Position numbers and translations under genes: made by a program
Part shown: positions 1 through 59,840 of the stretch, piece after piece
How the letters are laid out: each line of letters starts with the position of its first letter
How positions within the stretch are numbered: the first letter of the stretch is position 1
The notes under the pieces: model-generated
Database searches by the model: none
What the model was told of the DNA's origin: nothing
Seen by the model: the letters and a program-made list of their open reading frames with translations, nothing else
DNA from: Hyphomonadaceae bacterium
GTDB lineage: Bacteria > Pseudomonadota > Alphaproteobacteria > Caulobacterales > Hyphomonadaceae
Assembly (NCBI GenBank): GCA_022844345.1
Contig: JALHLU010000017.1
Location: 1-64,000, forward strand
DNA: 64,000 bases
Direction: 5' to 3'

Positions 1-372
1 CTCGGGGCCGCGGGCCAATCGGGCGCGGCAAGCGTCGCTTCCGGCCTCGGCGGCGTCGCCCGCGCAGCCGGTGGCGCGGCGGCTTCGCCCCTCCGCCGGG
101 CGGCCTCACGCACCGCCGACAGCATGCGGTCGAGCTTCTCGGAGGGCGGGAAATCCGCCTTCGAAGCCACCGGTGGCACCTCGACCATGGGCACGATCGG
201 CGGAGGCACGGCCGAGGCGGCCGCACCGGCTGACGGACCACCGGCCTGGGCTCGCCGCATGAAGCGCTCCCAAACGCTGAGTCACGGCGTGACAGCGGCC
301 GCCCATGCCGTTCGCAGCGGCGACAGCCACGGCGGCGGCTCCTCCATCAACCTCTCCGAAAGCGACCGCTGA
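1..372 (+). CDS. trbL: TrbL, conjugal transfer membrane protein (C-terminal part only)
   Basis: The reading frame is open from base 1 to the TGA at 370-372 and encodes the low-complexity Ala/Gly/Ser-rich tail typical of the cytoplasmic C-terminus of TrbL, ending in SESDR. TrbL is the polytopic inner-membrane protein (VirB6-like) of the P-type mating-pair formation system. The start and all membrane segments lie left of the window. The stop overlaps the trbF start by one base (TGATG), which supports the assignment through operon order trbL-F-G-I. The tail itself has little sequence specificity, so the name rests on context plus the closing segment. Confidence 0.8.
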   Translation, partial: LGAAGQSGAASVASGLGGVARAAGGAAASPLRRAASRTADSMRSSFSEGGKSAFEATGGTSTMGTIGGGTAEAAAPADGPPAWARRMKRSQTLSHGVTAAAHAVRSGDSHGGGSSINLSESDR

Positions 373-1055
373 TGTTCAAACGACCCTCTACTCACTACGG
401 CAAGTCCCCCGAACCAGAGACGCCTTACCAGCGGGCCGCCCAGGTCTGGGACGATCGTATCGGCGGCGCTCGCGTCCAGGCCAAGAACTGGCGCCTCATG
501 GCCTTCGGATCGCTGATCCTCTCGGCTGGATTCGCTGCCGCGCTCGTCTGGCAATCAGCGCGTGGCACGGTCGTACCCTGGGTGGTGCAGGTCGATCGGC
601 TCGGTCAGGCGCAGGCGGTGGCGCCAGCAGTCGCCGACTATCGCCCGACCGACCCGCAAATCGCCTTCCACCTCGCGCGTTTCATCGAGCAGGTCCGCTC
701 GATCCCGTCCGATGCCATCATCGTCCGCCAGAACTGGCTGCGCGCCTACGACTTCACGACTGATCGCGGCGCGATGGCGCTGAACGACTATGCGCGCTCG
801 AACGACCCTTTCACCAAGGTCGGCCGGCAGCAGGTCGCCGTCGACGTTTCCAGCGTGATCCGCGCGTCGCCGGATAGCTTCCGCGTCGCTTGGACCGAGC
901 GGCGCTACGAGAACGGCCAGCTTGCCGAGACGACCCGCTGGACCGCCATCCTCACCATCGTCGTGCAGGTGCCTCGCAACGCCGACCGGCTGCGAGCGAA
1001 CCCGCTCGGCATCTACGTCAACGCCATCAACTGGTCACGGGAGCTTGGGCAATGA
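372..1055 (+). CDS. trbF: TrbF, conjugal transfer protein (VirB8-like)
   Basis: The 227-residue product has a short cytoplasmic N-terminus, one membrane segment at about residues 43-63 and a periplasmic domain, the layout of TrbF/VirB8 proteins, which act as assembly factors of the conjugation channel at the inner membrane. Motifs such as 'VVPWVVQVDRLG' just after the membrane segment and the closing 'NPLGIYVNAINWSREL' are characteristic of TrbF. It overlaps trbL by one base and trbG by four, so the three are translationally coupled. Length is normal for the family. Confidence 0.95.
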   Translation: MFKRPSTHYGKSPEPETPYQRAAQVWDDRIGGARVQAKNWRLMAFGSLILSAGFAAALVWQSARGTVVPWVVQVDRLGQAQAVAPAVADYRPTDPQIAFHLARFIEQVRSIPSDAIIVRQNWLRAYDFTTDRGAMALNDYARSNDPFTKVGRQQVAVDVSSVIRASPDSFRVAWTERRYENGQLAETTRWTAILTIVVQVPRNADRLRANPLGIYVNAINWSRELGQ

Positions 1056-2077
1056 AGCCGTCTTTCCGTAAAGCCGGAAACCCGGCTTCTCGCACTTCCA
1101 TACTCGCGGCTCTGCTGCTTTCAGCAACTGCGCTCGCCGGCTGCGCCACGATGCAGAAACCGCCCGAGATCTCCTATGACGACGCGGCGCCGGCCGTGCA
1201 GACGGCCGATCCGCCGGGACCAGTGCAGGTCGTGGAACTTCCACGTCCGCTACCGCTGCCGGGGCAGATGAAGCCCGTTGAAGAAACGCGCCGAACCCCG
1301 GAGCCGGCCGATCCAACGGCCCGCGTCAATCAAGCCAATGCCGCCGCGCGCGTGCAGCCGGTGCGCGACGGCTTCATCAACGCCATGCAGGTCTACCCTT
1401 ACACCAGCGGCGCGCTCTATCAGGTCTATACTGCCGTAGGTCAGATCACCGATATCGCGCTGCAGCCTGGCGAGCAGCTCGTGGGCTCCGGGCCGGTGGC
1501 CGCTGGCGACACGGTCCGCTGGATCATCGGCGACACGCAGAGCGGTTCGGGCGCGACTCTGCAAGTCCACATCTTGGTGAAGCCGACCCGCGCCGACCTG
1601 ATGACCAACCTGGTCATCAACACCAATCTGCGGACCTATCACATGGAGCTGCGCTCGACCGAGAGCACCTATATGGCGTCGGTCTCGTGGCAGTACCCGC
1701 AGGATCAGCTCATCGCCCTGCGCCACCAGAACGCGCAGGCCGAGGCAGCGCGTCCCATCGCCACCGGCGTCGACCTCGCCAACATCAACTTCCGCTATGC
1801 CATCGAGGGCGATCGTGCGCCCTGGCGGCCGCTGCGGGCCTATGACGACGGACGGCAGGTCTTCATCGAGTTTCCGCGCGGCATCGGCCAAGGCGAGATG
1901 CCGCCGCTCTTCGTGGTCGGCCCCGAGGGCAACACCTCCGAACTCGTGAACTACCGCGTCCGCGGCAACTACATGATCGTCGATCGCCTGTTCGCGGCCG
2001 CCGAGCTGCGCTTCGGCGCCGGTGACCACCAGAAGCGCGTTCGGATCACCCGCACCGACGGGAGGCCGGCGTCGTGA
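1052..2077 (+). CDS. trbG: TrbG, conjugal transfer lipoprotein/outer-membrane channel component (VirB9-like)
   Basis: The ATG at 1052 overlaps the trbF stop by four bases (ATGA) and gives a 341-residue protein. A signal peptide ends in a lipobox (LAGC, Cys about residue 29), followed by a proline-rich linker and a VirB9/TrbG beta domain with 'YPYTSGALYQVYTAVGQITD' and 'MELRSTESTYMASVSWQYP'. TrbG forms the outer-membrane ring of the mating channel together with TrbI. The last codons overlap the GTG start of trbI. A longer frame upstream within trbF exists but would bury the signal peptide, so the internal ATG is preferred. Confidence 0.95.
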   Translation: MKPSFRKAGNPASRTSILAALLLSATALAGCATMQKPPEISYDDAAPAVQTADPPGPVQVVELPRPLPLPGQMKPVEETRRTPEPADPTARVNQANAAARVQPVRDGFINAMQVYPYTSGALYQVYTAVGQITDIALQPGEQLVGSGPVAAGDTVRWIIGDTQSGSGATLQVHILVKPTRADLMTNLVINTNLRTYHMELRSTESTYMASVSWQYPQDQLIALRHQNAQAEAARPIATGVDLANINFRYAIEGDRAPWRPLRAYDDGRQVFIEFPRGIGQGEMPPLFVVGPEGNTSELVNYRVRGNYMIVDRLFAAAELRFGAGDHQKRVRITRTDGRPAS

Positions 2078-3294
2078 GCGAGCCTGAAGCCCGGAAAGAG
2101 GATGAGGATGATGCACCGCTGACCGGGTCGACCGCCGATGCGGCCGCCCCGATGCGGCTTCGTGCGGAGGCGCCGCGCGTTACGCGGCTGTCGCGCAAGG
2201 TGCTCGCCGGCATCGGTCTCCTGGCGAGCGTGGGCCTGGGCGGAGCGCTGATCTATGCCCTGCAGACGCGCGACGGCGGCAAGTCCGCCGAAGAACTCTA
2301 TTCGACCGAAAACCGATCGACCGCCGACGGCTTGGCGGGCTTGCCCCGCGACTATAGCGGTGTGCCTCAGCTTGGCCCGCCGCTACCCGGCGACCTCGGT
2401 CGTCCCATCCTCGGCGCGCAGAATCGCGGCCAGCGTGTGCCCAATCCCGCCATAGCGCCACCCAATCCTGGTCTCAGCGCCGAGGAGCAACGCCGCCTGC
2501 AGGAAATCGAGAGCGCCCGCACCGCCAAGCTCTTCGCCGGCACGGAGAACCGGCCGACGCCATCATCCGCCTCTGGCACTGCGACGGCTGTTCCGCCGCC
2601 AATACCTGACCTCGCCAGCCTCGGGCTTGCTCCCCAGCCAGCGACGCCGTCGGCCCAGGATCGGCAACTCGCCTTCCTAAACGCCGCCGCCGATCGCCGC
2701 ACCGTCTCGCCGGATCGCATCGCGGCTCCAGCGTCGCCGAACATCCTTCAGGCGGGCGCCGTGATTTCGGCCGCGCTCATCACCGGCATCCGGTCCGATC
2801 TTCCGGGCCAGGTCACCGCGCAAGTGACGGAGAACATCTATGACAGCCCGACGGGCCGCATCCTTCTCGTACCCCAGGGCACCCGCATCATTGGCCAGTA
2901 CGACAACAATGTTCAGTTCGGCCAAAGCCGCGTGCTGCTGGTCTGGAACCGGCTGATCTTCCCGAACGGCCGCTCGATCGTGCTCGAGCGTCAACCTGGC
3001 GCTGATGCCGAAGGTTATGCCGGCCTCAAGGATGGCGTCGACTATCACTGGTGGGATCTTGCCAAGGCGGCGGGCTTGTCCACGCTGCTGAGCATTGGGG
3101 CAGAGCTCGCCACCAACGACGACGACCGCCTGATCCAGGCGATCCGCAACGGCGGGCAGGACACGATCAACGATGCCGGTCAGCAGATCGTTCGCCGCCA
3201 GTTGAACATCGCCCCGACCTTGACGATCCGCCCCGGGTTCCCCGTTCGCGTCATCGTCACCCGCGACCTCGTCCTCGAACCCTACGGAGGCTGA
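2074..3294 (+). CDS. trbI: TrbI, conjugal transfer protein (VirB10-like)
   Basis: The product is 406 residues with a GTG start overlapping trbG (GTGA). It has an acidic N-terminus, one membrane segment at about residues 44-63, a long proline-rich periplasmic linker and a C-terminal VirB10/TrbI beta-barrel domain with 'GAVISAALITGIRSDLPGQV', 'PQGTRIIGQYDN' and a closing 'PGFPVRVIVTRDLVLEPY'. TrbI spans both membranes and couples energy input to channel opening. Family length and gene order are normal. Confidence 0.96.
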   Translation: MSEPEARKEDEDDAPLTGSTADAAAPMRLRAEAPRVTRLSRKVLAGIGLLASVGLGGALIYALQTRDGGKSAEELYSTENRSTADGLAGLPRDYSGVPQLGPPLPGDLGRPILGAQNRGQRVPNPAIAPPNPGLSAEEQRRLQEIESARTAKLFAGTENRPTPSSASGTATAVPPPIPDLASLGLAPQPATPSAQDRQLAFLNAAADRRTVSPDRIAAPASPNILQAGAVISAALITGIRSDLPGQVTAQVTENIYDSPTGRILLVPQGTRIIGQYDNNVQFGQSRVLLVWNRLIFPNGRSIVLERQPGADAEGYAGLKDGVDYHWWDLAKAAGLSTLLSIGAELATNDDDRLIQAIRNGGQDTINDAGQQIVRRQLNIAPTLTIRPGFPVRVIVTRDLVLEPYGG

Positions 3295-3295
3295 C

Positions 3296-3538
3296 ATGGC
3301 AAAGCTGAAGCTCGGGGCCGTTGCCGACGACAAGCCGGTCAAGCTCACGATCGAATTTCCGGCCACCGTCCATCGCGACCTGGTCGCTTACGCGGAAATC
3401 CTGGCCCGCGAAACCGGTCATCCGTTGAGCGACCCAGCCAAGCTGATCGTCCCCATGGTGGAGCGCTTCATGGCAACCGACCGCGGCTTCGCGAAGGCGC
3501 GGCGGCCGCGTCAGTCGCCCGTAGGCAACGCGGGATAG
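3296..3538 (+). CDS. DUF2274 domain protein
   Basis: This 80-residue protein follows trbI after one base. It contains 'KPVKLTIEFPATVHRDLVAYAE' and 'LIVPMVERFMATDR', which I recognise as the DUF2274 family that almost always sits directly after trbI in alphaproteobacterial conjugative elements. The fold looks like a small ribbon-helix-helix-type protein, but no function is established to my knowledge. Its last 28 bases overlap the 3' end of the convergent LysR gene. Confidence 0.85.
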   Translation: MAKLKLGAVADDKPVKLTIEFPATVHRDLVAYAEILARETGHPLSDPAKLIVPMVERFMATDRGFAKARRPRQSPVGNAG

Positions 3539-6952: not shown

Positions 6953-8454
6953 ACCGCAAGACACTCCAGGTTCTGGTGATGGGAGCGGGCGTTCTCGCCG
7001 CTGCTGGCTTCGGTTACTGGATCGGTCATCGTACAGCACCAACCGGTGGGCCCCCGGCGGTGTCATCCAACAAAGACACCAACCAGAGCGGCAAGCGGGT
7101 TCTCTATTGGCATGATCCCATGGTGCCGGGCCAGCGCTTCGACAAACCTGGCAAGTCGCCATTCATGAACATGGAACTGGTGCCGGTCTACGCGGACGGC
7201 GAAGCCGCCACCGGCGTGAGCATAGACCCTGTCATGGCGCAGAATCTGGGGCTACGCACCGCCAAGGTGACGCGTCAGCGGTTCGGGTCTGCATTGGAGG
7301 CGCCGGGCGTGGTCGCCGTGCCGGAAGGCAATGACGTGTTGCTCCAGGCGCGGACTGCCGGAACCATCGTGCGGGTTCATGTTTCAGGCAGTTATGCGGC
7401 GGTGAGGCAGGATGACCCACTTCTCACCATCACCAGCCCGGAACTCATTGCCGCACTGCGCGAATTTCAGGTGCTCAACGAATCCATCTCACCGGACCTT
7501 GCACCGCTTCGCGAGGCGGCAATGCAGCGGCTCAAGGTTCTTGGGGTCGATCAGGCCAGTATTGAAAAGGCTGAGCAGGGATCAACGGCCGCCCTGACGC
7601 TGGTTCAACGTGCCCCTGCCTCCGGCATCATTCGAGAACTGACGGCGCGCGAGGGAATGACGGTCGCTCCTGGCCAGATGCTGGCGAGGATATCACCAAT
7701 ATCCCCGATCTGGATCGAGGCCGCCCTCCCCGAGGCAAGCACCGGTTCGATCCACCCTGGGAATATGGCTTTCGTCTCAGCGCCGGGTCTGATGGGCGCC
7801 CCGATCGCTGCCAAGGTCGTCGCCGTTCTTCCCACCGTTGACCCCGTGACGCGCACACGTGGCGTGCGGCTTGAGACTGCCAATCATGACATGACGCTGG
7901 TACCCGGCATGACGGCGCGGGTGCGCTTCGATGGGGGCGCCGGAGAACAGGTGCTCGCCATACCCGATGAAGCGATCATCCGTACCGGAACGCGCGCGTT
8001 GGTCTACGTGCAAAACGAAGCCGGCAGGTTCGTGCCGGTCGAGATCGACGCCGGGCGGACGATCGACGGCCGGACTGAGGTGCGTTCGGGGCTCGATGAA
8101 GGCGCCAGGGTGGTCAGTTCGGCGCAGTTCCTGATCGACTCCGAATCCAATCTACGCGCCGCAGGGGAACGTGTGCAGGCGCCGGCGAAAGCGCCGACCG
8201 GGGCCTCCGGCTATGAGGGGAAGGGCGTGGTGATTGGCTCCGCGGCCGGACAGGTAACTCTGCGCCACGAGGCTGTGCCGGCTGCGAACTGGCCGGCCAT
8301 GATCATGACGTTCACGCTCGCGCCAGGCGTCAATGCCACCATGCCGACGGGCACGGTGGTGCGCTTCCGCTTCCGGATGGACGCCGGCAAGCCGCCGATA
8401 GTCACCTCACTCGAGGCCGAGTCCAGACTCGGCCGCACGGGAGGCACGCCATGA
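6949..8454 (+). CDS. cusB: CusB-type RND periplasmic adaptor with N-terminal HMBD and fused C-terminal CusF-like domain
   Basis: The product is 501 residues. An N-terminal anchor (about residues 6-24) is followed by a heavy-metal-binding domain at about 52-82 ('[12 protein letters not shown]', '[10 protein letters not shown]'), the CusB hairpin and barrel domains, and a tail from about residue 420 resembling CusF. In this tail H440, W448, M451 and M453 keep the spacing of the four CusF Cu(I)/Ag(I) ligands (H-x7-W-x2-M-x-M). CusF is a separate chaperone in E. coli; here it is fused. The gene overlaps the TolC gene and the cusA gene by four bases each. Substrate Cu(I)/Ag(I) is well supported. 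Confidence 0.93.
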
Positions 8455-11400
8455 TCGCCGCGATCATCCGCTGGTCGGTCGGCAACCGCATCCTCGTGTT
8501 GCTGGCGGCGGCAGCGATCGCGGCCGGCGGCATCTGGGGCATCCGCGCGACACCGCTGGACGCACTGCCTGATCTCTCCGATGTGCAGGTGATCCTGCGC
8601 ACCACTTACCCTGGCCAGGCGCCGGACCTGGTCGAAACCCAGGTCACCTACCCGCTGACGACGACCATGCTGTCGGTGCCGGGTGCCAAGACCGTGCGGG
8701 GCTACTCGTTCTTCGGCGACTCCTTCGTCTACATCCTGTTCGAAGACGGCACGGACCCATATTGGGCACGGTCTCGCGTGCTGGAGGCGTTGGCCCAGGT
8801 GCAGAATCGACTGCCGTCATCGGCACGCGTGGCCCTGGGGCCGGATGCTACCGGCGTGGGCTGGATCTACACGTATGCCCTCGTCGATAGAACCGGCGGC
8901 CACGACCTTGGTCAGCTTCGTTCGCTGCAGGACTGGTTCCTGCGCTACGAGCTGAAAACCATCCCTGATGTGGCCGAAGTCGCCAGCCTCGGCGGCATGG
9001 TGAAGCAGTATCAGGTGGTGCTCGATCCGGTCAGACTGCTCAATCTCGGCCTCACCGCCGAGGACGTCGTGACGGCGCTCAAGGGAGCGAATGAGTCGAC
9101 CGGCGGCTCGGTGCTGGAACTTGGCGAAGCCGAGTACATGGTGCGCAGCCCCGGCTACCTGACCGGCGTCGCCGATATCGCCGGCACCGTCGTCAAGACT
9201 GGATCGACGGGCGGCCTCGTTCGAGTCGGCGACGTGGCGACCGTGCAAGTCGGCCCCGAAATGCGCCGGGGCGTCGCCGAACTGAACGGGCAGGGCGAAG
9301 TGGCCGGCGGTATCATCGTGTTGCGGTCGGGCAAGAACGCCTGGAACGCGCTGCAGGCGGTTCATGCTCGGATCGGGACGCTACGCAAGAGCCTGCCGCC
9401 GGGCGTCGAGATCGTTACCACTTACGACCGATCCGACCTGATCGGCCGCGCGGTCGAGACGCTGACTCACAAGCTGATCGAGGAGTTCATCATCGTCGCG
9501 CTGGTGTGCGGCCTGTTCCTGCTCCACCTGCGCTCGTCGTTCGTCGCCATCGTCACGCTGCCGCTGGGAATACTGGCGAGCTTCCTCGTCATGCATCTGC
9601 AGGGCCTCACCGCGAACATCATGTCGCTGGGCGGCATCGCCATCGCCATTGGCGCCATGGTCGATGCCAGCGTGGTGATGATCGAGAACGCCCACAAGCA
9701 TCTGGAACATTGGCGGCTCCAGCATGATGACGTCGAGCCTCCGCCGGCCCAGCGTTGGGCGATCATCACCAGCGCGGCCATCGAGGTCGGCCCTGCGCTG
9801 TTCCTGGCGCTGCTGATCATCACCTTGTCGTTTATCCCGGTGTTCTCTCTGGAAGCCCAGGAAGGCCGGCTGTTCGCCCCGCTCGCTTTTACCAAGAGCT
9901 ATGCGATGGCGGCAGCGGCCGGCCTGTCGATAACGCTTGTGCCGGTGCTCATGGGCTACCTGATCCGGGGACGCATCAGGAGCGAAGCGGAGAACCCGGT
10001 CAACCGCGTGCTCGCGCGGCTCTATGCACCGTGCCTCGACTGGACGCTGCGCCGCCCCAAGACAACATTGTTGCTCGCGGCCGTCATCCTGGCTGCATCA
10101 CTCATTCCCTTGACCCGGCTCGGTTCCGAGTTCATGCCGGCGCTCGATGAAGGCGACCTGCTCTACATGCCCACGGCATTGCCCGGTCTTTCCATCGGCA
10201 AGGCGACACAGCTCCTCCAACAGACTGACCGGATGATCCTGACCGTGCCCGAGGTCGCCTCCGTCATGGGAAAAGCGGGGCGGGCGGACACCGCCACCGA
10301 TCCGGCGCCGCTGGAGATGTTCGAGACGATGGTGAGACTCAAGCCCCGCGAGCAATGGCGGCCCGGCCTGACTATGGACCGAGTCGTAAGCGAGTTGGAC
10401 GCGGCAGTGCGGGTGCCCGGCCTGACCAACGTCTGGGTGCCGCCAATCCGCAATCGGATCGACATGCTTGCGACGGGTATCAAGAGCCCGGTGGGCATCA
10501 AGGTCAGCGGGCCAGATCTTTCGACCATCGATGGCCTGGCAGCCAACATTGCGGATGCCGTTCGATCCGTGCCTGGCGTGACCTCGGCATTTGCGGAAAG
10601 GCTGGCCGGTGGCCGCTACGTCAACATCGAGATCGATCGCACATCGATAGGCCGCTACGGGCTCACTCTGGAGAGCGTGCAGTCGTTCATCGCCACGGCA
10701 ATTGGCGGCGAGCCCGTCACCGGGATTGTCGAAGGCTTGGCGCGTTACTCGTTGAACGTGCGCTATCCGCGTGAGACGCGGGAGTCGCTCGATGGCCTGC
10801 GTCATCTAACGGTGCCCTTGCCAGCGGGCGGTGTTGTTCAGCTAGGCGACATCGCGCGTATCACCATTGCCGATGGCCCGGCCATGATCCGCAGCGAAAA
10901 CGCCCGGCCGTCGGGCTGGGTCTATGTGGATGTTCGTGGCCGCGACCTTTCATCTGTCGTCGCCGATATGCAGGCCAGGGTTACCTCAAGCGTGAAGCTG
11001 CCCGCCGGCTATGCGGTGTCATGGTCGGGGCAGTTCGAATATCTCGAACGCGCGGCCGGCAAGCTCAGGCTGGTCGTTCCCGCGACCCTGCTCATCGTGC
11101 TGGTGATGCTCTACCTGACGTTCCGCCGCTGGGACGAGGCACTGCTGCTGCTGATCACGCTGCCATTCGCGCTCGCAGGAGGGCTTTGGCTGATCTGGCT
11201 CCTGGGACATGCGGTATCCGTGGCGACGGCCGTGGGCTTCATCGCATTGGCCGGCGTCGCGGCCGAGTTTGGGATCGTCATGCTGATCTATCTCAAGGCG
11301 GCTTGGGAACGTAAGCAACTTGCGGGGGAGGATGACGACGCAGGGCTGCTGGCTGCTGTACGAGAAGGTGCACTGTTGCGTGTGAGACCCAAAGCAATGA

Positions 11401-11603
11401 CGGTCGCCGTCATACTGGCCGGCCTGCTTCCAGTGCTTCTGGGGACGGGGACGGGTTCAGAGGTCATGCAGCGCATCGCGGCGCCCATGGTCGGCGGCAT
11501 GATCACGGCGCCGCTTCTGTCGATGATCGTGATACCGGCAGCATATGTTCTGTTGAGGCGTCGTCGATCCAAAGGATCGCCACCGGTCGTGGCCAACTCA
11601 TAA
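8451..11603 (+). CDS. cusA: CusA-type heavy-metal RND transporter (Cu(I)/Ag(I) efflux)
   Basis: The product is 1050 residues, the usual size. The membrane motif '[20 protein letters not shown]' is the CusA form rather than the CzcA form (which has DFG). The porter region keeps '[14 protein letters not shown]' and '[17 protein letters not shown]', containing two of the methionines used for Cu(I) relay in E. coli CusA. Twelve membrane segments and two large periplasmic loops are evident. It uses proton flow to export Cu(I)/Ag(I) from the periplasm with the preceding adaptor and TolC protein. ATGA overlap with the adaptor; the TAA stop overlaps an ATG of the next open frame. Confidence 0.95.
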
Positions 11604-11677
11604 TGCAATGCCACCTGGGTTCAGAAACTGAATGGATTCGCCTTGCGCGCACTCTGTTCCTCGGCAATATTAAAGGG

Positions 11678-12085
11678 GTGAAACACTTCCACGCGATCGT
11701 CGTGATGTTGATGATGTTGGCATTGCCGGCAGCTGCTTGGGCATCGACGAGCGGAATGTCGCATTGTGCGAAAAGTGTCAGCCAGTCGGTCGCGCCCATG
11801 CCCGGCATGCACGCCGAGCACATGCATCATCATAATCCTGATCAGTACCAGGTCATCGCTCACGCGTCCGGTCACGCTCAGCATGGCACTGCCCAACATG
11901 GTTGCAATTGCGGCTGCTCCTGCACGGCTCCCTGTTCCATGACGTGTTTCGGCGTCTTTGGGCTGGATGCAGCCCAATTGCAATCAGTGCCTAGCCCCGA
12001 CAAAGGCAGTATTCCGGCATTCACGGCGGTTGCCGCCCCTGAAGTCGACTTAACCCTTCCACTACGACCGCCACGTTCCTCCTGA
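11678..12085 (+). CDS. Small exported His/Met/Cys-rich protein
   Basis: From the GTG at 11678 the product is about 135 residues, beginning with a good signal peptide ('VKHFHAIVVMLMMLALPAAAWA'-like in two steps, cut near AAAWA). The mature part holds 'MPGMHAEHMHHH' and 'CNCGCSCTAPCSMTC', a dense set of Cu(I)-type ligands, and a proline-rich tail. An ATG at 11603 overlapping the cusA stop (TAATG) would add 25 residues in front of the signal peptide and coupling to cusA; the start is therefore uncertain. It is not a recognised family to me. Location after cusA suggests periplasmic copper binding. Confidence 0.6.
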   Translation: MKHFHAIVVMLMMLALPAAAWASTSGMSHCAKSVSQSVAPMPGMHAEHMHHHNPDQYQVIAHASGHAQHGTAQHGCNCGCSCTAPCSMTCFGVFGLDAAQLQSVPSPDKGSIPAFTAVAAPEVDLTLPLRPPRSS

Positions 12086-12261
12086 ACGATTGCTGGGGGT
12101 ATCCCGGCTAGAGGCTGCGTATGCAAGCGCGGTGGGCGTACGTCCATCGCTGTGCATGGGGAGACGGGGACTGCCTGACTTTTTAGGCATCCTGACTCCG
12201 CGCGCCGGTCCTCTTCCGTGGTCGCCTCCATCCCATTCGAACTTGATGGAGGATTCACTTG

Positions 12262-14166
12262 GTGTCCAAGAAACTTGGCCTGCTGTTCGTATCGGCAGCC
12301 GCCCTTTCCGCTTCGGGCTGCGCATCGATCCCGGATGATCGGGGGATGTCGGACGTGCGAGGGCTTATCTCGGCTCGTGGCGGGCCGAACCTGCCCACAA
12401 CGGCCGAAACAGGTGCGTCGCTTGCGCTCTCGGGCAAGGCGCTATCGGTGCAAGACGCGGTGCAGATCGCGCTGACGCATAACCCAAGGCTGCGCAAGGG
12501 CTACGCGCAACTCGGGTTCGCCGGCGCCGAAATCTATCAGGCAGGACGGCTTAGCAATCCACGTCTGTCCCTTACAGTCCTCGACCCGAGCGGCATCGGT
12601 CTTGCCAACCAGATCACCATCGGGCTGGCGCAGAATTTCACTGAGCTGCTGATGCTGCCCGCCCGCAGCCGGATCGCGGAAGGCGAGTTCGAACGGGCCA
12701 AGGCGTTGGTGGGTGCAGATGTGCTGCGGCTCGCGGCACAGGTCGAGGCAGCCTACTACAGCCTGGTCGGTGCTCAACAGGTTGCCGCGATGCGCACGGC
12801 GATTGCCAAGGCTGCGCGCGCTTCGGCGGATCTGTCACAGCGCTATTACGATGCTGGCAACATCACCGAGCTTCAGGTGCGGCTCCAACAGGCGACCGCG
12901 TCCCAATCGGAGCTCGATCTTCTGTCTGCCCAGGCCGAAGTTACGCATGCGCGCAGCCAACTCAACACGCTCCTCGGCCTTACCGAAGACGATGGAAAGT
13001 GGGTCGTTCCTGATCGGTTACCCATGCCAGCGACAGAGGAAGACGATCCAGCGGACCTCCAGAGGCTTGCAACCGCGAACAGGCTTGATCTTGCCGCCGC
13101 ACGCAAGGAAGTGGAACTGGCGCGGTCAGGCTTCAAATTGACCCGGCGTTTCCGTTTCATTGGCGACATGGAAGTCGGTGTTGAGCATGAACGGGATACG
13201 GATCGCACCCGGATGACAGGCCCAACTCTGACCTGGGCCGTTCCCCTGTTCAACCAGAACCAGGCCGGCGTGTTGAGGGCCACGTCAGAACTGGAAAGCT
13301 CCCAGGCCGAACTGCGAGAGCTTGAAATTGACGCAAGCAATGAGATTCAGCTCGCCTCTCAACGCGTTCTCAATACGCGCGCAAAAATCTATGAATTCCG
13401 CAAGAACCTGCTGCCGTTGCGGGAAGAGATCGTGGCCCGCATGCAGGAGCGCGTGAACTACATGCTCGACGGCGTGTTCGATCTGCTCCGGCTCAAACAG
13501 GAAGAATACGGGGCGTATGAAGGCTACCTCGAAGCCGTCCGCGATTACTGGAAGGCACGGGCCGAGCTGGGGCGGCTCGTTGGAACCCAGCTGCCAAGCA
13601 CCGCACGGATCACCAACGGTACCATAGGTCCGGAACTGCCGGAGCAATCGGACCAGGCCGGCGGGGCGATGGATGGCATGGACATGGGCGGCATGGACAT
13701 GGGTGGGATGGACCATTCGTCGGGCGCGATGAAGTCCAAACTTGGTTCGTCCACCCACGCCAATCCTGGCCAGATGATGCCCGGAATGGACATGGGCGAA
13801 ATGGAGGGGATGGCTCATGCCCCGACAGCGACGCCATCTATCTCCACAAAGCCTGCTGGCAATTCTCCCTCCGACAGCATGCCAGGCATGGATATGAGCG
13901 GAATGAAGGGAATGGATCACTCCACTCCCACAGCAACCGTATCCCACGCTGCGGCTTGTGAGCAGGCGAAGAACGGCAACATGGACGATCCGCTGGTACG
14001 TGCGCTCGCCCAAAAATGCCGCGAACAGGAACCATCGGTCGGCCCGGGTGCCCTCCCAGCGTCACCCGACGACCATCCGACCACTCACTCCGACCAGCAA
14101 ACCCAGCCCCCCGCCGGCTCGCCGGACGGCGACGGATCTTCCCCACACGGCGATCACCAACACTAG
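12262..14166 (+). CDS. TolC-family outer membrane lipoprotein with Met/His-rich copper-binding C-terminal extension
   Basis: A GGAGG site precedes a TTG (12259) and a GTG (12262) start. The signal peptide ends in a lipobox (SASGC). Residues to about 460 form a TolC/CusC-like channel. The last 170 residues are an extension: repeats of 'MDGMDMGGMD' type, further 'MPGMDMGEMEGM' and 'MPGMDMSGMKGMDHS' blocks, then a two-cysteine segment (C566, C586, 'MDDPLVRALAQKC') and a His-containing end. The Met blocks resemble those in CopA/CopB copper-resistance proteins. The two-Cys segment resembles the small protein encoded immediately downstream. At about 634 residues it is far longer than usual TolC proteins. 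Confidence 0.88.
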   Translation: MSKKLGLLFVSAAALSASGCASIPDDRGMSDVRGLISARGGPNLPTTAETGASLALSGKALSVQDAVQIALTHNPRLRKGYAQLGFAGAEIYQAGRLSNPRLSLTVLDPSGIGLANQITIGLAQNFTELLMLPARSRIAEGEFERAKALVGADVLRLAAQVEAAYYSLVGAQQVAAMRTAIAKAARASADLSQRYYDAGNITELQVRLQQATASQSELDLLSAQAEVTHARSQLNTLLGLTEDDGKWVVPDRLPMPATEEDDPADLQRLATANRLDLAAARKEVELARSGFKLTRRFRFIGDMEVGVEHERDTDRTRMTGPTLTWAVPLFNQNQAGVLRATSELESSQAELRELEIDASNEIQLASQRVLNTRAKIYEFRKNLLPLREEIVARMQERVNYMLDGVFDLLRLKQEEYGAYEGYLEAVRDYWKARAELGRLVGTQLPSTARITNGTIGPELPEQSDQAGGAMDGMDMGGMDMGGMDHSSGAMKSKLGSSTHANPGQMMPGMDMGEMEGMAHAPTATPSISTKPAGNSPSDSMPGMDMSGMKGMDHSTPTATVSHAAACEQAKNGNMDDPLVRALAQKCREQEPSVGPGALPASPDDHPTTHSDQQTQPPAGSPDGDGSSPHGDHQH

Positions 14167-14175
14167 GAGATACCG

Positions 14176-14469
14176 ATGAAAACTCGCTTCCAGATCGTTC
14201 TGGCCTTCGCTCTTTTCGCACTGCCCGTGACGGCTTTTGCCCACGATCCAAGCCAACACAAGGGTCAGGAGAGTTCGGCTCCCGATTGCTCCTCCATGAA
14301 GGGTACGGACATGAGCAAGATGGACATGAACGACCCCGTCATGAAGGCAATGCACGACAAATGCATGGCCCAGATGAAGCATGACGACATGGACCATGAC
14401 GACATGAAGGACATGCCCGGCATGGATAAGCACGACGCACCGCCGACCGACGGCAAAGGCGGGAAGTGA
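14176..14469 (+). CDS. Small exported two-Cys Met/His/Asp-rich protein (copy 1)
   Basis: The 97-residue product has a signal peptide ('RFQIVLAFALFALPVTAFA') followed by a module with Cys38 and Cys63, 'MDMNDPVMKAMHDKCMAQM', and a tail of Met/His/Asp (HDDMDHDDMKDMPGMDKHD). A close relative with the same signal peptide style and module is encoded at 58329-58607, and the tail of the preceding TolC protein carries a related two-Cys segment. The TGA overlaps the ATG of the oxidase gene (TGATG). No established family comes to mind; periplasmic copper binding is inferred from ligands and context. Confidence 0.75.
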   Translation: MKTRFQIVLAFALFALPVTAFAHDPSQHKGQESSAPDCSSMKGTDMSKMDMNDPVMKAMHDKCMAQMKHDDMDHDDMKDMPGMDKHDAPPTDGKGGK

Positions 14470-15854
14470 TGGTCACAAGACGAACACTTCTATCGGCGAT
14501 GGGCGTCGGCTCGCTGGCGACCGTGGCCACGGGAATGTTGGTTTCCAGCGACCGTGCGTTGGCGACGCAGGGGGTGCCCACCGGGCACCCCCATTCCGGT
14601 GGCGGCTTCACACCCGTTCGGACGCTCAATGGCTGGACGTTGCCTCACCGTATCAACGACGGGGTCAAGGAATTCCACCTTGTCGCCGAAGAAGTCGATC
14701 ATGAGTTCGCTCCAGGCAGTACAGCCAAATGCTGGGGCTACAACGGCACCACGCCTGGGCCGACCATCGAGGCCGTGGAGGGAGACCGGGTGCGGATTTA
14801 CGTCACCAACCGGCTGGGCGAGCCCACCTCGGTGCATTGGCACGGACTCTACTTGCCCAGCGGCATGGACGGCGTCGGCGGCCTTACCCAGCCGCACATC
14901 AAACCCGGTGAGACATATGCCTACGAGTTCACCCTGCGCCAGCACGGCACCCACATGTACCACCCGCATGCTGACGAGATGACCCAGATGGCGCTTGGCA
15001 TGATGGGGATGTTCATCATCCATCCCCGCGACGGCGAGCCGGAACGGATCGACCGCGACTACGCCTTCCTGCTGCACAACTGGGCGCTGCACCCAGGCAC
15101 CTACCGGCCTGATCCTGCCATCATGCAGGACTTCGACCTGTGGACCTTCAACAGCAAGACATTCCCCGCAATCGATCCCATCGTCGCGCGCACCGGCGAG
15201 CGGGTTCGCATCAGGATGGGCAACCTCTCCATGTGGAACCACCCCATGCATCTGCACGGCGTGCAGTTCTGGGTGACAGGAGGCGACGGAGGGCGCTGGC
15301 AACGATCATCCTGGCGGACGGAAGTCACCGAGATTGTCGGCGTTGGCCAGATGCGGGACATCGAGTTCACCGCCATCCCAGGCGACTGGGCGTTCCACTG
15401 CCATATGGCGCATCACACCATGGGGCCGATGGGACATGAACTGCCCAACCCTGTCGGTGTCGATCAATCTGCGGTCGAGGAGGACATCCGGTCGATCCTG
15501 CCGGGCTACATGGCCATGGGTAAAGACGGAATGGCGGAGCATGGCGAGCATGTGGCCATGGGCATGCTTGAGGGACCCGAAAACACTCTGCCGATGATGA
15601 GTGGCAAAGGCCCGTTCGGTTCCATCGAAATGGGCGGCATGTTCACCGTGGTTAAGGTGCGCGACGATCTCGCCCCCGGTGACTACAGCGATCCCGGGTG
15701 GTACCGGCATCCGAAGTCCAAGCTGGCGCAGCGGGTCAGCGACGACCCGAATTTCGGCGCACCAGTGAGGCGCCAGCCAGCGATAACGCCTACCAAAGCA
15801 CCCGCAGCACCCATGGATATGCCCGGCATGCCCGGTATGAAACACGGCGGATGA
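14469..15854 (+). CDS. Multicopper oxidase (CopA/CueO-like), Tat-exported
   Basis: The 461-residue product starts with a twin-arginine signal ('TRRTLLSAMGVG'). All four copper-binding motifs are visible: HWHG (about 123-126), HMYHPHAD (about 162-169), HPMHLHG (about 258-264) and HCHMAHHTMGPM (about 310-321), the last giving the type 1 Cys, His and Met ligands. It has the length of compact three-domain copper oxidases and ends with a Met/His-rich tail (MDMPGMPGM). Expected role is periplasmic oxidation of Cu(I). It is coupled to the small two-Cys gene upstream and followed after 24 bases by a cytochrome c gene. Confidence 0.95.
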   Translation: MVTRRTLLSAMGVGSLATVATGMLVSSDRALATQGVPTGHPHSGGGFTPVRTLNGWTLPHRINDGVKEFHLVAEEVDHEFAPGSTAKCWGYNGTTPGPTIEAVEGDRVRIYVTNRLGEPTSVHWHGLYLPSGMDGVGGLTQPHIKPGETYAYEFTLRQHGTHMYHPHADEMTQMALGMMGMFIIHPRDGEPERIDRDYAFLLHNWALHPGTYRPDPAIMQDFDLWTFNSKTFPAIDPIVARTGERVRIRMGNLSMWNHPMHLHGVQFWVTGGDGGRWQRSSWRTEVTEIVGVGQMRDIEFTAIPGDWAFHCHMAHHTMGPMGHELPNPVGVDQSAVEEDIRSILPGYMAMGKDGMAEHGEHVAMGMLEGPENTLPMMSGKGPFGSIEMGGMFTVVKVRDDLAPGDYSDPGWYRHPKSKLAQRVSDDPNFGAPVRRQPAITPTKAPAAPMDMPGMPGMKHGG

Positions 15855-15878: not shown

Positions 15879-16457
15879 ATGAAACTCTTCAAGATACTGC
15901 TTGGCCTAGCTGCTGTCGGTCTGATCGGCGGCGTTCTGTTTGTTTATTTCGGTGTCTTCAATGTCGCCGCCGACGAGCCGCATTCGAAACCGGCGTACTG
16001 GCTGATGGAAACCGTGCGCGAGCGTTCAATTGCGGTGCATGCGAAGGGCATCAAGGTGCCTTCGCTGGATGATGCGTCAATGCTCATGTCCGGCGGCGCC
16101 GACTACAATGAAATGTGTTCGGGTTGCCATCTTCGGCCCGGCGTTGAGTCCTCGGAACTGCGGGATGCGCTCTATCCTCAGCCGCCCAACCTGACGAAGA
16201 CCAAGCGTGCCAACCCGGCCGAAACATTCTGGATCATCAAGCACGGCGTCAAGATGAGCGCGATGCCTGCATGGGGCGCAACCCATGATGACCGGCGTAT
16301 GTGGGCGATGGTCGCCTTCCTGCAGCAACTCCCAAGGCTGACGCCCGCCCAGTACCAGATCCTTACGGCGCGGGCCGAAGGCGATGAGAGAAGTCATGAC
16401 CATGGTAGCGAGGGCGGTGATTCGAAGGAGACAATGCCTGGAATGAATATGCCCTAA
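15879..16457 (+). CDS. Membrane-anchored cytochrome c with Met/His tail
   Basis: The 192-residue protein has one N-terminal membrane segment (about residues 5-25) and a single haem c site, CSGCH at 80-84. A distal ligand candidate lies in 'KMSAMPAWG'. The C-terminus is rich in His and Met ('HDHGSEGG', 'MPGMNMP'). Its position directly after the multicopper oxidase suggests it passes electrons to or from that enzyme. That pairing is known for some copper clusters, but the electron path here is inferred. Confidence 0.88.
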   Translation: MKLFKILLGLAAVGLIGGVLFVYFGVFNVAADEPHSKPAYWLMETVRERSIAVHAKGIKVPSLDDASMLMSGGADYNEMCSGCHLRPGVESSELRDALYPQPPNLTKTKRANPAETFWIIKHGVKMSAMPAWGATHDDRRMWAMVAFLQQLPRLTPAQYQILTARAEGDERSHDHGSEGGDSKETMPGMNMP

Positions 16458-20179: not shown

Positions 20180-20196
20180 ATACCCCCATAGGGTAT
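20180..20196. promoter_or_regulatory. CsoR-type operator, site 2
   Basis: ATACCCCCATAGGGTAT has arms ATACCC and GGGTAT around five bases. It is related to site 1, with centre-to-centre spacing of about 21 bases (two helical turns), and lies about 33 bases before the copA start. Confidence 0.75.
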
Positions 20197-47719: not shown

Positions 47720-48052
47720 TCAAGCTAGCGGGGGGCGGATCGGCGGACCGGGGTCGCGGCCCTGTTGTGCAAGCACAGTTGGAAGCGGTAGCTTTTCCGA
47801 CAAACGCGCAAAGTCCACAGGCATGACCGGCTGGACGCGCAGCAAATGATCCGCCATCTGGCTGGCACAATGAGCCCGAGCATGGAAAATGTCCGAGCTC
47901 GACGTCTGCCGCGCGTCAATATCCTGCAGCAAAACCACCACAGCGGTGGCCGCCTGAGCTTGTGCATCTAGCTGTTCATGAGCTATTCCATCCGCGAAGC
48001 GAACGGCCAGCAGAGCCAGAGCGACCAAGAATGCGATTACGCGAAACATCAC
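47720..48052 (-). CDS. Small exported protein upstream of czcC (copy A)
   Basis: The 110-residue product has a signal peptide or anchor ('FRVIAFLVALALLAVRFADGIA'), a region with two His and one Cys ('HARAHCASQMADHLL') and a proline-rich end, 'GPPIRPPLA'. A diverged relative with the same layout and the end 'RPPVPPPLA' is encoded on the other side of the shared control region. The position recalls CzcI-like genes before czcC in other bacteria, but I cannot confirm homology. It would be cotranscribed with the leftward czcCBA genes. Confidence 0.65.
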   Translation of the reverse strand: MMFRVIAFLVALALLAVRFADGIAHEQLDAQAQAATAVVVLLQDIDARQTSSSDIFHARAHCASQMADHLLRVQPVMPVDFARLSEKLPLPTVLAQQGRDPGPPIRPPLA

Positions 48053-48311
48053 GATTAGACTTATACAGCCTGGAAGCTACTCGCAAGAGATAACCGTCGG
48101 CGTTTAAACCAATGGGTCCATCGCCAGGCAGCGCCTGGGCTCCGGCAGCGTGGCCGTGTTGGGTCTCGAAAAGTCAGCTCCGCGTTACGCCGGCCGAGTC
48201 TCCGGAATGCATATCAATGGGCAATCACCGTTACCGAACGGCACGCTGGATTGTCCGATAGCCGGCATGCGGACTTGCCTTGTAAGCGCCCAGATCGTAT
48301 ACACGGTGAGC
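48053..48311. promoter_or_regulatory. Shared control region of the two divergent czc operons
   Basis: The 259 bases separate two divergent small genes that head the leftward and rightward czc operons. I find no clear palindrome, no two-component or MerR gene nearby, and no confident promoter pair. Regulation in response to metal is presumed from the arrangement. Confidence 0.45.
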
Positions 48312-48644
48312 ATGACTCGCCCAACTGTCCTGATCGTCCTATTGACTCTGCTGCTATCGCCCGTCCTTGACGCACTGGCGCACGGCAATGTCATCGACAG
48401 TGTCAGCCCGACTCGAACGGCCGTAACCGAAGTCCTAAACAGTGGCTGTTCCAAAACTACCGGCACCGCTCGTGACGCTTGGCACGCCGCGATGCATTGC
48501 GTCACCCACATGAGTGCCCATGTGGAGCGGATGGCCACAGTTGCCCATATCGAGTATGCGATTAGGACCCTCTATGTTGCGCCCAGCACGAGCATAGACA
48601 TCGGCCGGAACCTCCGCCCACCGGTTCCTCCACCTCTAGCCTGA
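48312..48644 (+). CDS. Small exported protein upstream of czcC (copy B)
   Basis: The 110-residue product, same length as copy A, starts at the ATG at 48312 (a GTG two codons earlier is possible). A signal peptide ('PTVLIVLLTLLLSPVLDALA') precedes a region with 'HAAMHCVTHMSAHVERM' and the end 'NLRPPVPPPLA'. The H...H-C-x2-H-M core and the proline end pair it with the divergent protein at 47720. Metal binding by the His/Cys core is inferred. Confidence 0.65.
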   Translation: MTRPTVLIVLLTLLLSPVLDALAHGNVIDSVSPTRTAVTEVLNSGCSKTTGTARDAWHAAMHCVTHMSAHVERMATVAHIEYAIRTLYVAPSTSIDIGRNLRPPVPPPLA

Positions 48645-51078: not shown

Positions 51079-51447
51079 ATGAAGCGCATCGAAGCATTTG
51101 TTCAACCGCACCGCCTCAGCAAGGTCGTCACGGCGCTACATGCACTCCCCCATTTCCCAGGCTTTACCGTTCTTAACGCTCAGGGGCAAGGTCACGGTCG
51201 TGGCACCGGTGGAAGCTTCATTTACAGCCGGGACGCAGGCCTCCTGCTCCACCCTCGCTTGGTCCTCGTTGTGGATTGTGAAGATCATGAAGCGCACGAC
51301 ATCGCGATGACGATCGCTCGAACCGCCCATACCGGCAACAAGGGCGATGGCATCGTGACGATCTTAGAAGTATCCGAGGTCATTCGAATCCGAACCGCTG
51401 AGCCGACTTCGTCTCCGATGGCACCTGGTGATGGAGACGGCGCATGA
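51079..51447 (+). CDS. PII-like protein inside the czc operon
   Basis: The 122-residue product has the PII layout: 'MKRIEAFVQPHRLSKVVTALHAL' at the start, a central T-loop-like region rich in Gly, and 'TGNKGDGIVTILEVSEVIRIRT' at the end, equivalent to the conserved C-terminal signature of GlnB. The T-loop lacks the uridylylated Tyr of GlnB. PII-like genes between czcB and czcA are a known group in metal efflux operons. It overlaps czcA by four bases and may gate the pump by sensing a nucleotide or metal. Confidence 0.85.
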   Translation: MKRIEAFVQPHRLSKVVTALHALPHFPGFTVLNAQGQGHGRGTGGSFIYSRDAGLLLHPRLVLVVDCEDHEAHDIAMTIARTAHTGNKGDGIVTILEVSEVIRIRTAEPTSSPMAPGDGDGA

Positions 51448-54400
51448 TCAACAGAATCATTGCGCTTTCCATAAGTAGTCGATGGATCGTTATGGCGGCG
51501 GTCGCCGCGTTCATCGTCTTTGGCATCTACCAGTATCGACAGCTTCCAATTGATGCTGTGCCTGACATCACCAATGTTCAGGTTCAGATCAACACACAGG
51601 CACCTGGATATTCGCCACTGGAGGTAGAACAACGCGTTACGTTTTTGATCGAAACCGCGATGGCGGGTTTGCCAAAATTAGAGCAAACGCGATCAACGTC
51701 GGCGTACGGCCTCTCTCAGGTGACGATCATTTTCCATGACGGCACCGACATCTACTGGGTTCGGCAGCTCGTTAACGAAAGGCTTCAAGAGGTAAAGGAC
51801 CAGCTTCCGTCGGGCGTAGCTCCCGAACTCGGCCCCATCTCGACAGGCCTCGGGGAGATCTACCTTTACACGGTCAATGCCGAAAAAAAGGCCCGCAAAC
51901 CTGACGGTTCGGCATACACGCCAACGGATTTACGAGCGATTCAAGACTGGGTCATTAGACCCCAGCTTCGGCAAGTTCCCGGTGTCTCTGAAGTCAATTC
52001 GATCGGGGGGTACGCCAAACAGTTTCAAGTAGCTCCGAGTCCCGCGCGACTGTTGGCCTTCCGCGTCACCCTCGCCGATTTGGTCGAGGCGCTCGAAGCG
52101 AACAACCTTAATGTTGGCGCCGGCTACATCGAGCGAAACGGTGAGCAATTTTTGGTTCGTGTGCCGGGGCAGCTTGCGGACATCGATGCCATTAAACGCA
52201 CTGTCATCACTACCCGTGACAATGCGCCGATCACTATCGGTGATGTCGCGGAAGTGGCGGTTGGTCATGAGCTTCGTACCGGCGCTGCGACGCAAGACGA
52301 CCATGAGACCGTAATCGGCACCGCCATGATGCTAATCGGCGAAAACAGCCGGATCGTCAGCGAGCGGGTTGCAGAACGATTAGCGGAGATCAACAAGCGT
52401 CTGCCCCCTGGTGTGACCGCCACCCCGGTTTATGACAGAACGGTGCTGGTGAACAAGACGATCGCAACGGTCCAAAAAAACCTCATCGAGGGCGCCATCT
52501 TGGTCATCGTAGTGCTCTTCCTCTTTCTCGGAAACCTTCGCGCCGCGCTCCTATCCGCAATGGTAATTCCATTATCACTGCTAGCCACCTTCACGGGCAT
52601 GGTCCAAGGAGGAATCAGCGGCAATCTGATGAGTTTGGGCGCTCTCGACTTCGGACTGATCGTCGATGGCGCTCTGATCATAGTGGAAAACTGCATTCTT
52701 AGACTTGCCGAGGCTCAGCACCATCGAGGGCGTCTCCTTGAACGCGGAGAGCGTTTCGAAGTTGTCTTTAATGCAACCCGCGAGGTGTTCAAACCAAGCT
52801 TGGTCAGCGTTATCGTCATCATCCTTGTGAATCTGCCAATTTTTGCGCTCTCTGGCGTAGAGGGCAAAATGTTCCATCCAATGGCGTTCGCCGTCATCGC
52901 CGCGCTTGTCGGCGCCTTCATCTTTTCGATCACATTCGTACCCGCGGCTTGTGCCCTTCTCCTTAGCGGGCACATCGCAGAGAAGGACAACTGGCTCGTC
53001 GCGAATTCCAAAAAACTTTACGAGCCGGCATTACGCTCGGTTCTCAAGTTCCGCATTCCCGTCGTTGCGGGCGCTCTTGTGCTGGTCATTATCACGGGCT
53101 TCGTCGCATCCCGCATGGGAGCGGAATTTATCCCAAACCTCGATGAAGGCGATCTCGCGATTGAGACCATTCGTCCCGTGACAACCGGCATCGAACAGGC
53201 TGTTGATATGCAGCTGCATCTCAATCAGGTCCTGCTATCCGTTCCTGAAGTTAAGACCGTCTTCGCCCGAAATGGTACGGCAGAAGTCGCTACCGACCTT
53301 ATGCCACCCGGTCGCTCCGACACGTATGTGATGCTGAAGCCGCATGATCAGTGGCCAGACCCCAAGAAACCCAAGGCTCAGTTGATCTCGGAGATTGAGG
53401 AGGCCGCAAAGAGCGTTCCAGGAACAATTCTGGGCTTCAGTCAGCCCATCCAGCTCCGTTTTAACGAGTTGATTTCGGGCGTTCGGAGTGACGTTGCCGT
53501 CAAGATATATGGCGACGATCTCGGCGAGCTGGTCCGCCTGGCCGCGCAGACTCAAGCCGTTCTGGCGCAAATCAAGGGCGCTGAGGACGTGAAAACGGAA
53601 CAGGCCGATGGTTTGCCTCTCCTGACCGTCGAGCCGCGCCGCATATCCCTGGCTCGCCACGGCCTGACGGTAGCAAACCTTCAGGACGTCGTTTCCGCAG
53701 CGCTAGGGGGAAAGGAAACCGGTCTCATCTACGAGGGCGACGCGCGCTATCCGCTCGAGGTGCGTCTACCTGAAACGTTGCGCATCAACCCTGAGGCGCT
53801 TGAACGATTACCTCTTGCCAAACCAGGGGGTGGTTACGTTCCTTTGGCCGAGGTAGCGGACATCAAATACTCCCAAGGCCCAAACCAAGTATCTCGGGAA
53901 AATGGCAAGCGCTTCATCGTCGTGATGGCAAACGTCCGAGGTCGCGATCTTGCCAGCTTCGTCAAGGAAACGAGCGCGGTTGTCGACAAACAGGTAAAAC
54001 TGCCTCCCGGGTACTACATTAGTTACGGCGGCACGTTCGAACAGCTGGCTTCCGCATCTGAACGCCTAAGCCTGTTGGTACCTCTCGCCCTTATAATGAT
54101 TTTTGGGCTGCTGGTACTTACATTTGGCTCAATTAAAGATGCGTTGCTCGTCTTCTCCGGCGTTCCTCTAGCTCTCACTGGTGGTGTCATTGCGCTGTTG
54201 CTACGTGGGATTCCACTCTCAATCACCGCAGGCGTAGGATTTATTACACTTTGCGGTGTTTCCGTCCTAACCGGTGTTGTGATGGTTTCCTACATCAGGG
54301 ACCTCGTAAGAGACGGAATGCCCGTCGAGGACGCCATTATGACCGGCGCGCTCACTCGCCTCCGCCCGATCCTTATGATTGGCCTAGTGGCATCGCTCGG

Positions 54401-54569
54401 GTTCTTGCCCATGGCTCTTAACACGGGGACCGGCGCCGAGGTTCAACGTCCACTCGCAACCGTGGTCATCGGAGGCATCATCTCCGCAACGCTCCTGTCG
54501 TTGTTCGTTCTGCCAGCACTGTATCGAATGGCGCACCGAAGGAAGCCGCCGGAAGTCGCTGAGGCATAG
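51444..54569 (+). CDS. czcA: CzcA-type heavy-metal RND permease (second czc operon)
   Basis: The 1041-residue product has '[20 protein letters not shown]' near the start and '[16 protein letters not shown]' in TM4 with the Asp-Asp-Glu set of CzcA. Porter and membrane domains are complete and the frame intact. It is a paralogue of the permease at 41923, on average less GC-rich. Predicted export of Co/Zn/Cd with the adjacent channel and adaptor. Confidence 0.95.
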   Translation: MINRIIALSISSRWIVMAAVAAFIVFGIYQYRQLPIDAVPDITNVQVQINTQAPGYSPLEVEQRVTFLIETAMAGLPKLEQTRSTSAYGLSQVTIIFHDGTDIYWVRQLVNERLQEVKDQLPSGVAPELGPISTGLGEIYLYTVNAEKKARKPDGSAYTPTDLRAIQDWVIRPQLRQVPGVSEVNSIGGYAKQFQVAPSPARLLAFRVTLADLVEALEANNLNVGAGYIERNGEQFLVRVPGQLADIDAIKRTVITTRDNAPITIGDVAEVAVGHELRTGAATQDDHETVIGTAMMLIGENSRIVSERVAERLAEINKRLPPGVTATPVYDRTVLVNKTIATVQKNLIEGAILVIVVLFLFLGNLRAALLSAMVIPLSLLATFTGMVQGGISGNLMSLGALDFGLIVDGALIIVENCILRLAEAQHHRGRLLERGERFEVVFNATREVFKPSLVSVIVIILVNLPIFALSGVEGKMFHPMAFAVIAALVGAFIFSITFVPAACALLLSGHIAEKDNWLVANSKKLYEPALRSVLKFRIPVVAGALVLVIITGFVASRMGAEFIPNLDEGDLAIETIRPVTTGIEQAVDMQLHLNQVLLSVPEVKTVFARNGTAEVATDLMPPGRSDTYVMLKPHDQWPDPKKPKAQLISEIEEAAKSVPGTILGFSQPIQLRFNELISGVRSDVAVKIYGDDLGELVRLAAQTQAVLAQIKGAEDVKTEQADGLPLLTVEPRRISLARHGLTVANLQDVVSAALGGKETGLIYEGDARYPLEVRLPETLRINPEALERLPLAKPGGGYVPLAEVADIKYSQGPNQVSRENGKRFIVVMANVRGRDLASFVKETSAVVDKQVKLPPGYYISYGGTFEQLASASERLSLLVPLALIMIFGLLVLTFGSIKDALLVFSGVPLALTGGVIALLLRGIPLSITAGVGFITLCGVSVLTGVVMVSYIRDLVRDGMPVEDAIMTGALTRLRPILMIGLVASLGFLPMALNTGTGAEVQRPLATVVIGGIISATLLSLFVLPALYRMAHRRKPPEVAEA

Positions 54570-55344: not shown

Positions 55345-55402
55345 TCTCCCCTACCGCTATTCAAATCTTATCTCGGAATCCTTGAATAATAGGAGCGCCG
55401 CA

Positions 55403-59815: not shown

Positions 59816-59840
59816 TGGAGCGGGCGATGAGATTCGAACT
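59816..59840. other. Probable chromosomal attachment site (right end of the element)
   Basis: Alphaproteobacterial conjugative elements often insert in the 3' end of tRNA-Gly. Accessory genes end to the left and conserved chromosomal genes begin to the right of this point. The matching repeat expected at the other end is outside the window, and no second copy of this sequence was noticed inside it. The exact core cannot be set from one end. Confidence 0.55.

Follow-up and report, generated by a model that had tools for sequence, protein, structure and literature searches.

Two small exported proteins encoded in the window (the whole stretch of 64,000 nucleotides of Hyphomonadaceae DNA that was analysed) are to be regarded, on sequence comparison, as members of a real but unnamed bacterial family, and the best reading, with a probability of about 0.45, is that they would act as small periplasmic metal carriers, of the Cu(I) type when rich in methionine. 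Copper islands are well studied, yet the small-protein gene is still annotated as hypothetical. If the protein feeds a cytochrome c or an oxidase, a gap in periplasmic copper routing would be filled, and the occurrence of methionine-rich and methionine-poor copies in one genome would test how a very short sequence encodes the choice of metal.

Small Proteins of the Window

The first protein, w14 (97 aa, 14176–14469, + strand, read from its open reading frame), is the methionine-rich form and carries its two-cysteine module, C38-x24-C63, at 14287–14364 (+). The second, w58 (92 aa, 58329–58607, + strand, also read from its open reading frame), is a methionine-poor paralogue with the module C28-x24-C53 at 58410–58487 (+). 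The start codon of w14 lies 9 bases past the stop of a TolC gene and its end overlaps the start codon of a multicopper oxidase (MCO) gene; w58 follows a P-type ATPase gene after 434 bases. Both proteins show a hydrophobic leader ending in AFA, followed by C...NDP..KA..HDKC; the leaders of the small proteins were read by eye as signal-peptide-like. The common leader style and module of the preliminary description were thus present as described, with the correction that 24 residues, and not 25, lie between the cysteines in both proteins. The two are 59% identical, and w14 matched w58 with an E value of 6.7e-18 when searched against the whole genome; therefore, the resemblance is not due to chance. 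Structure prediction, a check proposed earlier, gave poor AlphaFold models (mean pLDDT of 60.5 for w14 and 58.0 for w58) that showed little besides a helix from the DP motif onward, at H54–70 in w14 (53-row alignment) and at H33–37 and H44–66 in w58 (one sequence), all with low confidence.

Metal genes are found throughout the window. Conjugation genes of VirB8/TrbF, CagX/TrbG, TrbI and DUF2274 type stand at its left edge (372–3535), an IS-like element (58669–59522), present once in this genome, follows just after w58 and has a DDE transposase and inverted ends of 20 bases (95%), and a tRNA-Gly gene is located on the right side (59816–59890, − strand). Full-length stretches resembling this tRNA-Gly occur on contigs C15 and C6; a partial match of 46 bases (96%) lies at C15:1535–1580, as if a second tRNA-Gly island were present on C15. 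The Trb-type genes on the left, the metal genes, and the IS and tRNA-Gly on the right suggest that the region may be an integrated conjugative element carrying metal genes.

Conservation and Sporadic Distribution

Genome contigs scanned with a four-row alignment yielded 171 candidate stretches, 101 of which encode relatives; 80 were kept, corresponding to 73 distinct proteins, mostly from Gammaproteobacteria and many from marine sources according to record titles. Across 53 aligned members, M1, C38, D45, A58 and C63 are invariant, and conservation is concentrated in the middle of the protein, with a variable C-terminal end. The family pattern consists of AHDPxEH, C, MDHSKMDMNDPVMxAM, KC or QC and the variable end, with histidine among the last three residues in 48 of the 73 distinct relatives. 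In a set of 60 distinct proteins, which included w14 and w58 but not the Psychrobacter rows, L104 or L105, the spacing of the first two cysteines is 24 in 53 proteins and 21 in four; some of the remaining three spacings count an extra leader cysteine. A longer variant, in which the second cysteine is shifted, occurs in Psychrobacter and Moraxella.

The distribution of the family is sporadic. Within the GTDB family of the source organism, 3 of 105 genomes matched at E ≤ 0.01, one being the genome of the window itself and the other two matching weakly, with internal stops. In a phylum sample, 5 of 398 genomes matched, two of them weakly (E values of 4e-4 and 0.002) and with no such protein among the open reading frames listed, and in the class of genome G257, 4 of 321 genomes matched at E ≤ 0.05, one weakly. 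The module profile found nothing below E 0.03 in 245 class genomes besides the window's three copies. A tblastn search of plasmids yielded nine records, two from Methylophaga (E values of 7e-9 and 2e-10) and seven weak ones from Moraxella (E 0.2–0.5); all nine are annotated as 'hypothetical protein', and copper genes surround the match in the three records examined. No plasmid record matched w58 or L125, the second small-protein copy of G257.

The claim that no named family covers the small proteins held in Pfam, NCBIfam and the PDB. The 53 members gave weak and scattered Pfam and NCBIfam matches only, and none in the PDB; the weak matches included HdeA (best E 0.019, in three of the 53), DUF6488 (best E 0.0082, in five) and CopK (best E 0.0066, in three). 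In the literature searched (titles and abstract starts), motif strings including MDHSKMDM did not occur, and no paper was recognised as naming the family.

Neighbouring Genes

In the window, w14 is followed by the MCO gene (14466–15854, +; Pfam Cu-oxidase_3 and Cu-oxidase_2) and a cytochrome c gene (15879–16457, +; Pfam Cytochrome_CBB3, E = 5.9e-14). Upstream of the TolC gene stands a CopL-like gene (11603–12085, +), whose product ends in LRPPRSS and matches NCBIfam CopL_fam with an E value of 1.6e-4 at 22.3 bits, missing the cut-off of 40. The 80 loci were picked by the small protein alone, and their neighbours were assigned from tblastn matches to reference proteins of the window and the plasmids. 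The next gene downstream, within 400 bp, encodes a cytochrome c in 65 loci and an MCO in 10, so that one or the other directly follows in 75 of 80; the other five are L075, L091 and L094, together with L060 and L076, which are truncated close to a contig end. Directly upstream are found CopB (43/80), TolC (9/80) and RND (3/80) genes, and 78 of the 80 loci contain one or more of the copper-cluster genes that were sought. At L054, for example, MCO, CopB, the small protein, cytochrome c, DUF411 (which we take to be CopG) and a P-type ATPase stand in a row. A subset of loci, the window included, has the order TolC, small protein, MCO, and here the small-protein gene looks like an insertion into a TolC/MCO pair. 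TolC followed directly by MCO is common even where the small protein is absent (L139 and other pairs).

Module in the TolC Tail

The gene upstream of w14 encodes a lipoprotein of the TolC/OEP family (635 aa, TTG start, 12259–14166, +) with an OEP domain in two stretches (PF02321, E = 4.9e-35) and a Met/His-rich tail of about 175 residues containing MDDPLVRALAQKC. Its only cysteines are C21 of the lipobox, C567 and C587. The last two form a module, C567-x19-C587, at 13957–14019 (+); the preliminary description was right that the tail has this stretch and placed its cysteines at 566 and 586, whereas counting from the TTG at 12259 gives 567 and 587, with 19 residues between. The free and fused forms have in common the cysteine pair and a DD/NDP..A...KC stretch.

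By sequence alone, the link between the tail and the small proteins is marginal. A single BLASTP comparison with w14 gave 7 identities in 17 residues (E = 5e-4), and hhalign gave an E value of 1.4e-4 with a probability of only 53%. The profile search proposed earlier gave an answer that depended on the profile: shuffled tails scored as well as the window tail in 0 of 5000 trials with a module profile built without window sequences, in 1 of 5000 with the full-length profile and in 461 of 5000 with the C-terminal half-profile, a test that does not locate the best match within the tail; in another search, a similar profile matched the tail at its cysteine module. Among 15,624 open reading frames, the window tail reached an E value no better than 0.43.

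The fused form is not a one-off: it recurs in a distant TolC at L093, whose tail contains AACKQATAHPDDTVNQALTQKC, where the order of genes is the same and the locus's own small-protein gene adjoins. The two TolC modules match each other by BLASTP with an E value of 2e-6, their segment alignment beating 5000 of 5000 shuffles and that of the whole tails 1000 of 1000. Recent copying of w14 into the end of TolC is not favoured by these comparisons, because the two TolC modules are closer to each other than the window tail is to w14. Tail cysteines occur in 2 of 25 TolC relatives tabulated after removal of the L151 fragment, L127, L137 and L146 being second entries for the places of L144, L145 and L139; the pair is present in 2 of 11 TolCs with a small-protein gene and in 0 of 14 without. 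The close relatives of the window TolC and of the L093 TolC have no tail module, and in a tree of 23 TolC rows, which leaves out L043 and, for its shortness, L062, they fall in different clades with 100/100 support; therefore, at least two gains or losses are needed. These may reflect two independent gains, an old gain with losses, or transfer. The L093 counterpart and the tree make it likely that the patchy tail module is real, and free and tail modules may share a common ancestry. The claim of a module existing both free and fused to TolC stands for the fused form and is marginal for the sequence link.

The alternative that the tail motif is convergent or a product of chance, the likeness of a cysteine pair within a Met/His-rich tail to the small proteins being coincidental, has a considerable probability, though the odds are against it. 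The match to w14 spans just 17 residues, and a profile of 11 free modules raised neither TolC above 4 bits; a profile combining free modules with the window tail scored L093 at 6.6 bits, below an unrelated Cys-rich open reading frame at L062 (11.1 bits). No further case was found in 105 family genomes, where the best other match to the tail (E = 0.0024) has internal stops, in 244 other class genomes or in 72,556 plasmid records, which gave no match to the window tail and one at E 3 to the L093 module; searches with full TolC matched 331 and 330 plasmid records. Against chance stand the 0 and 1 of 5000 shuffled tails reaching the score with two profiles, the recovery of the window tail by a profile of free modules plus L093 (E = 0.01), and the small-protein gene adjoining both cases. 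The Cys-rich open reading frame (L062, 3810–4226) lies in a copper cluster, contains DDPVMKACAERC as a partial look-alike of the module and is perhaps a Csp-type copper store.

TolC tails measure 45–222 residues where a small protein lies between TolC and MCO (n = 11) and 0–119 residues where it does not (n = 13; L148 was dropped, as the locus ends there). The Mann–Whitney p value of 2e-4 is generous, since L041, L042 and L043 are near-copies and kinship was ignored.

Methionine Content and Neighbouring Pumps

The number of methionines between the cysteines is six in w14, one in w58 and none in L125, and in the TolC tails it is one in the window and none in L093. Both the window's genome and G257 contain a methionine-rich and a methionine-poor copy. 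Methionines are expected Cu(I) ligands. Methionine-rich copies near an RND gene (L143, L095, L100 and L102) have pumps with methionine at all three compared positions, presumably the known CusA methionines, in the four checked, and the pumps near the methionine-poor w58 and L125 lack them in both cases; the comparison covers six loci, a part of those bearing RND genes, and the L102 pump is 1.5 kb away. The window itself encodes a CusA-type RND pump with the three methionines (8451–11603, +) and, in the w58 cluster, a Czc-like RND pump without them (51444–54569, +). The P-type ATPase before w58 (55016–57895, +) is better fitted by cadmium/zinc models than by the copper model: the scanned part, 55616–57892, passes the cadmium cut-off and just misses that for copper (391.8 vs 397). 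The ATPase at 20187 scores above the copper cut-off, and the adaptor near L125 fits best, below the model's cut-off, a divalent-metal exporter. A strict rule linking methionine and metal is argued against by L044, the only truly methionine-poor case among 73 scanned relatives (for L075 and L106 the cysteine pair was mis-assigned in the count, and they are not included), which stands beside cytochrome c and CopB matches. The earlier label of a copper-binding module agrees with the copper-cluster setting and is too narrow, because methionine is nearly absent from w58 and the TolC copies and the neighbours of w58 include a Czc-like pump and an ATPase of the Zn/Cd type.

A P-II-like protein gene (51079–51446) is located between the adaptor and the pump of the Czc-like set. 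Before the Czc-like operons, two divergent open reading frames, 47723–48052 (−) and 48150–48641 (+), end in PPIRPPLA and LRPPVPPPLA, have no Pfam match at E ≤ 0.01 and look like putative leader sensors of the CzcI/CutF type.

Proposed Role

As a metal carrier, the family would share a single short scaffold, in which the exported chain opens with an AHDPxEH-like stretch, two cysteines usually stand 24 residues apart and a predicted helix would begin at the DP motif and end at the second cysteine. In the common methionine-rich form, with MDHSKMDMNDPVMxAM between the cysteines, methionines and histidines would bind Cu(I) and deliver it to the MCO or cytochrome c encoded next door. The cysteine pair might staple the chain through a disulfide or form part of the metal site. 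In the methionine-poor form, the same scaffold may serve divalent-metal (Czc-type) export, and the TolC-tail copy would place the cysteine–helix element at the outer-membrane channel, putatively on its periplasmic side, beside the Met/His-rich tail as a tethered collector. A wider proposal, that the cysteine pair and DP-capped helix constitute a transferable periplasmic scaffold, with metal choice set by the residues between the cysteines (methionine-rich for Cu(I) by Cop/Cus, methionine-poor for divalent metals by Czc), and that this scaffold was captured by channel tails of two distinct lineages, whereby a free carrier became tethered to the channel, is tentative and on balance doubtful.

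An unspecific copper sponge, in which methionine and histidine would buffer periplasmic copper with no set recipient, as proposed for PcoE/SilE, is unlikely. The methionine-rich module, the variable and often His-rich end and the low predicted order of w14 and w58 are consistent with it, and PcoE has been called a possible Cu sponge in the available text of a review (PMC7558416). Nevertheless, the strictly kept cysteine pair, D45, DP and A58, as well as the close placement ahead of cytochrome c or MCO, exceed a sponge's needs. A leader open reading frame that would respond to metal during its translation and thereby regulate the gene behind it, as for CutF, CruR and CopL, would account for export, two cysteines and the place immediately ahead of the oxidase gene (10/80 loci), comparable to cutF directly before cutO in the accessible parts of two reports (PMC8456105, PMC9973294), but is judged very improbable from the absence of CXXC or CXXXC (0/73 distinct relatives) and the rarity of PP within the last 20 residues (6/73), with DUF2946 matched by 0 of 53 members, conservation in the middle instead of at the variable C-terminal end, and a CopL-like gene already upstream in the window.

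Comparison with Known Systems

CutF, CruR, CopL and CzcI are described, in the available text, as small exported proteins with two cysteines in CXXC/CXXXC and a C-terminal proline motif, and paralogues of this type have been proposed for other metals (PMC8456105, PMC9973294, PMC9426467). The small proteins resemble them in size, export, two cysteines and position before metal-resistance genes, partly before an MCO gene, and differ from CutF, CruR and CopL, as described there, in C-x24-C, the NDP helix and the lack of a conserved proline end. DUF2946 was not among the 14 Pfam families touched by the 53 members at E ≤ 0.1, nor CopL_fam among the 17 NCBIfam families touched.

CusF folds as a beta-barrel, in contrast to the poor models of w14 and w58, which show helix only. 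PcoE and SilE have, to our knowledge, no conserved cysteine pair; the small proteins are set apart from them by description alone, a PcoE/SilE-type family being absent from the Pfam and NCBIfam matches of the 53 members, in libraries that may hold none. The likeness to PcoE/SilE lies in small exported proteins with repeated metal-binding motifs in copper clusters, and that to CusF in the proposed role of carrying Cu(I) between periplasmic partners, as far as the accessible text of the review describes them (PMC7558416). The available text on Xanthomonas copLABMGF names no small protein between copB and copM (PMC10924375, PMC11651105). The gene row seen here, for example at L054, resembles that system (PMC10924375, PMC11651105), in which CopM is described, in the portion available, with a cytochrome c domain (PMC10924375).
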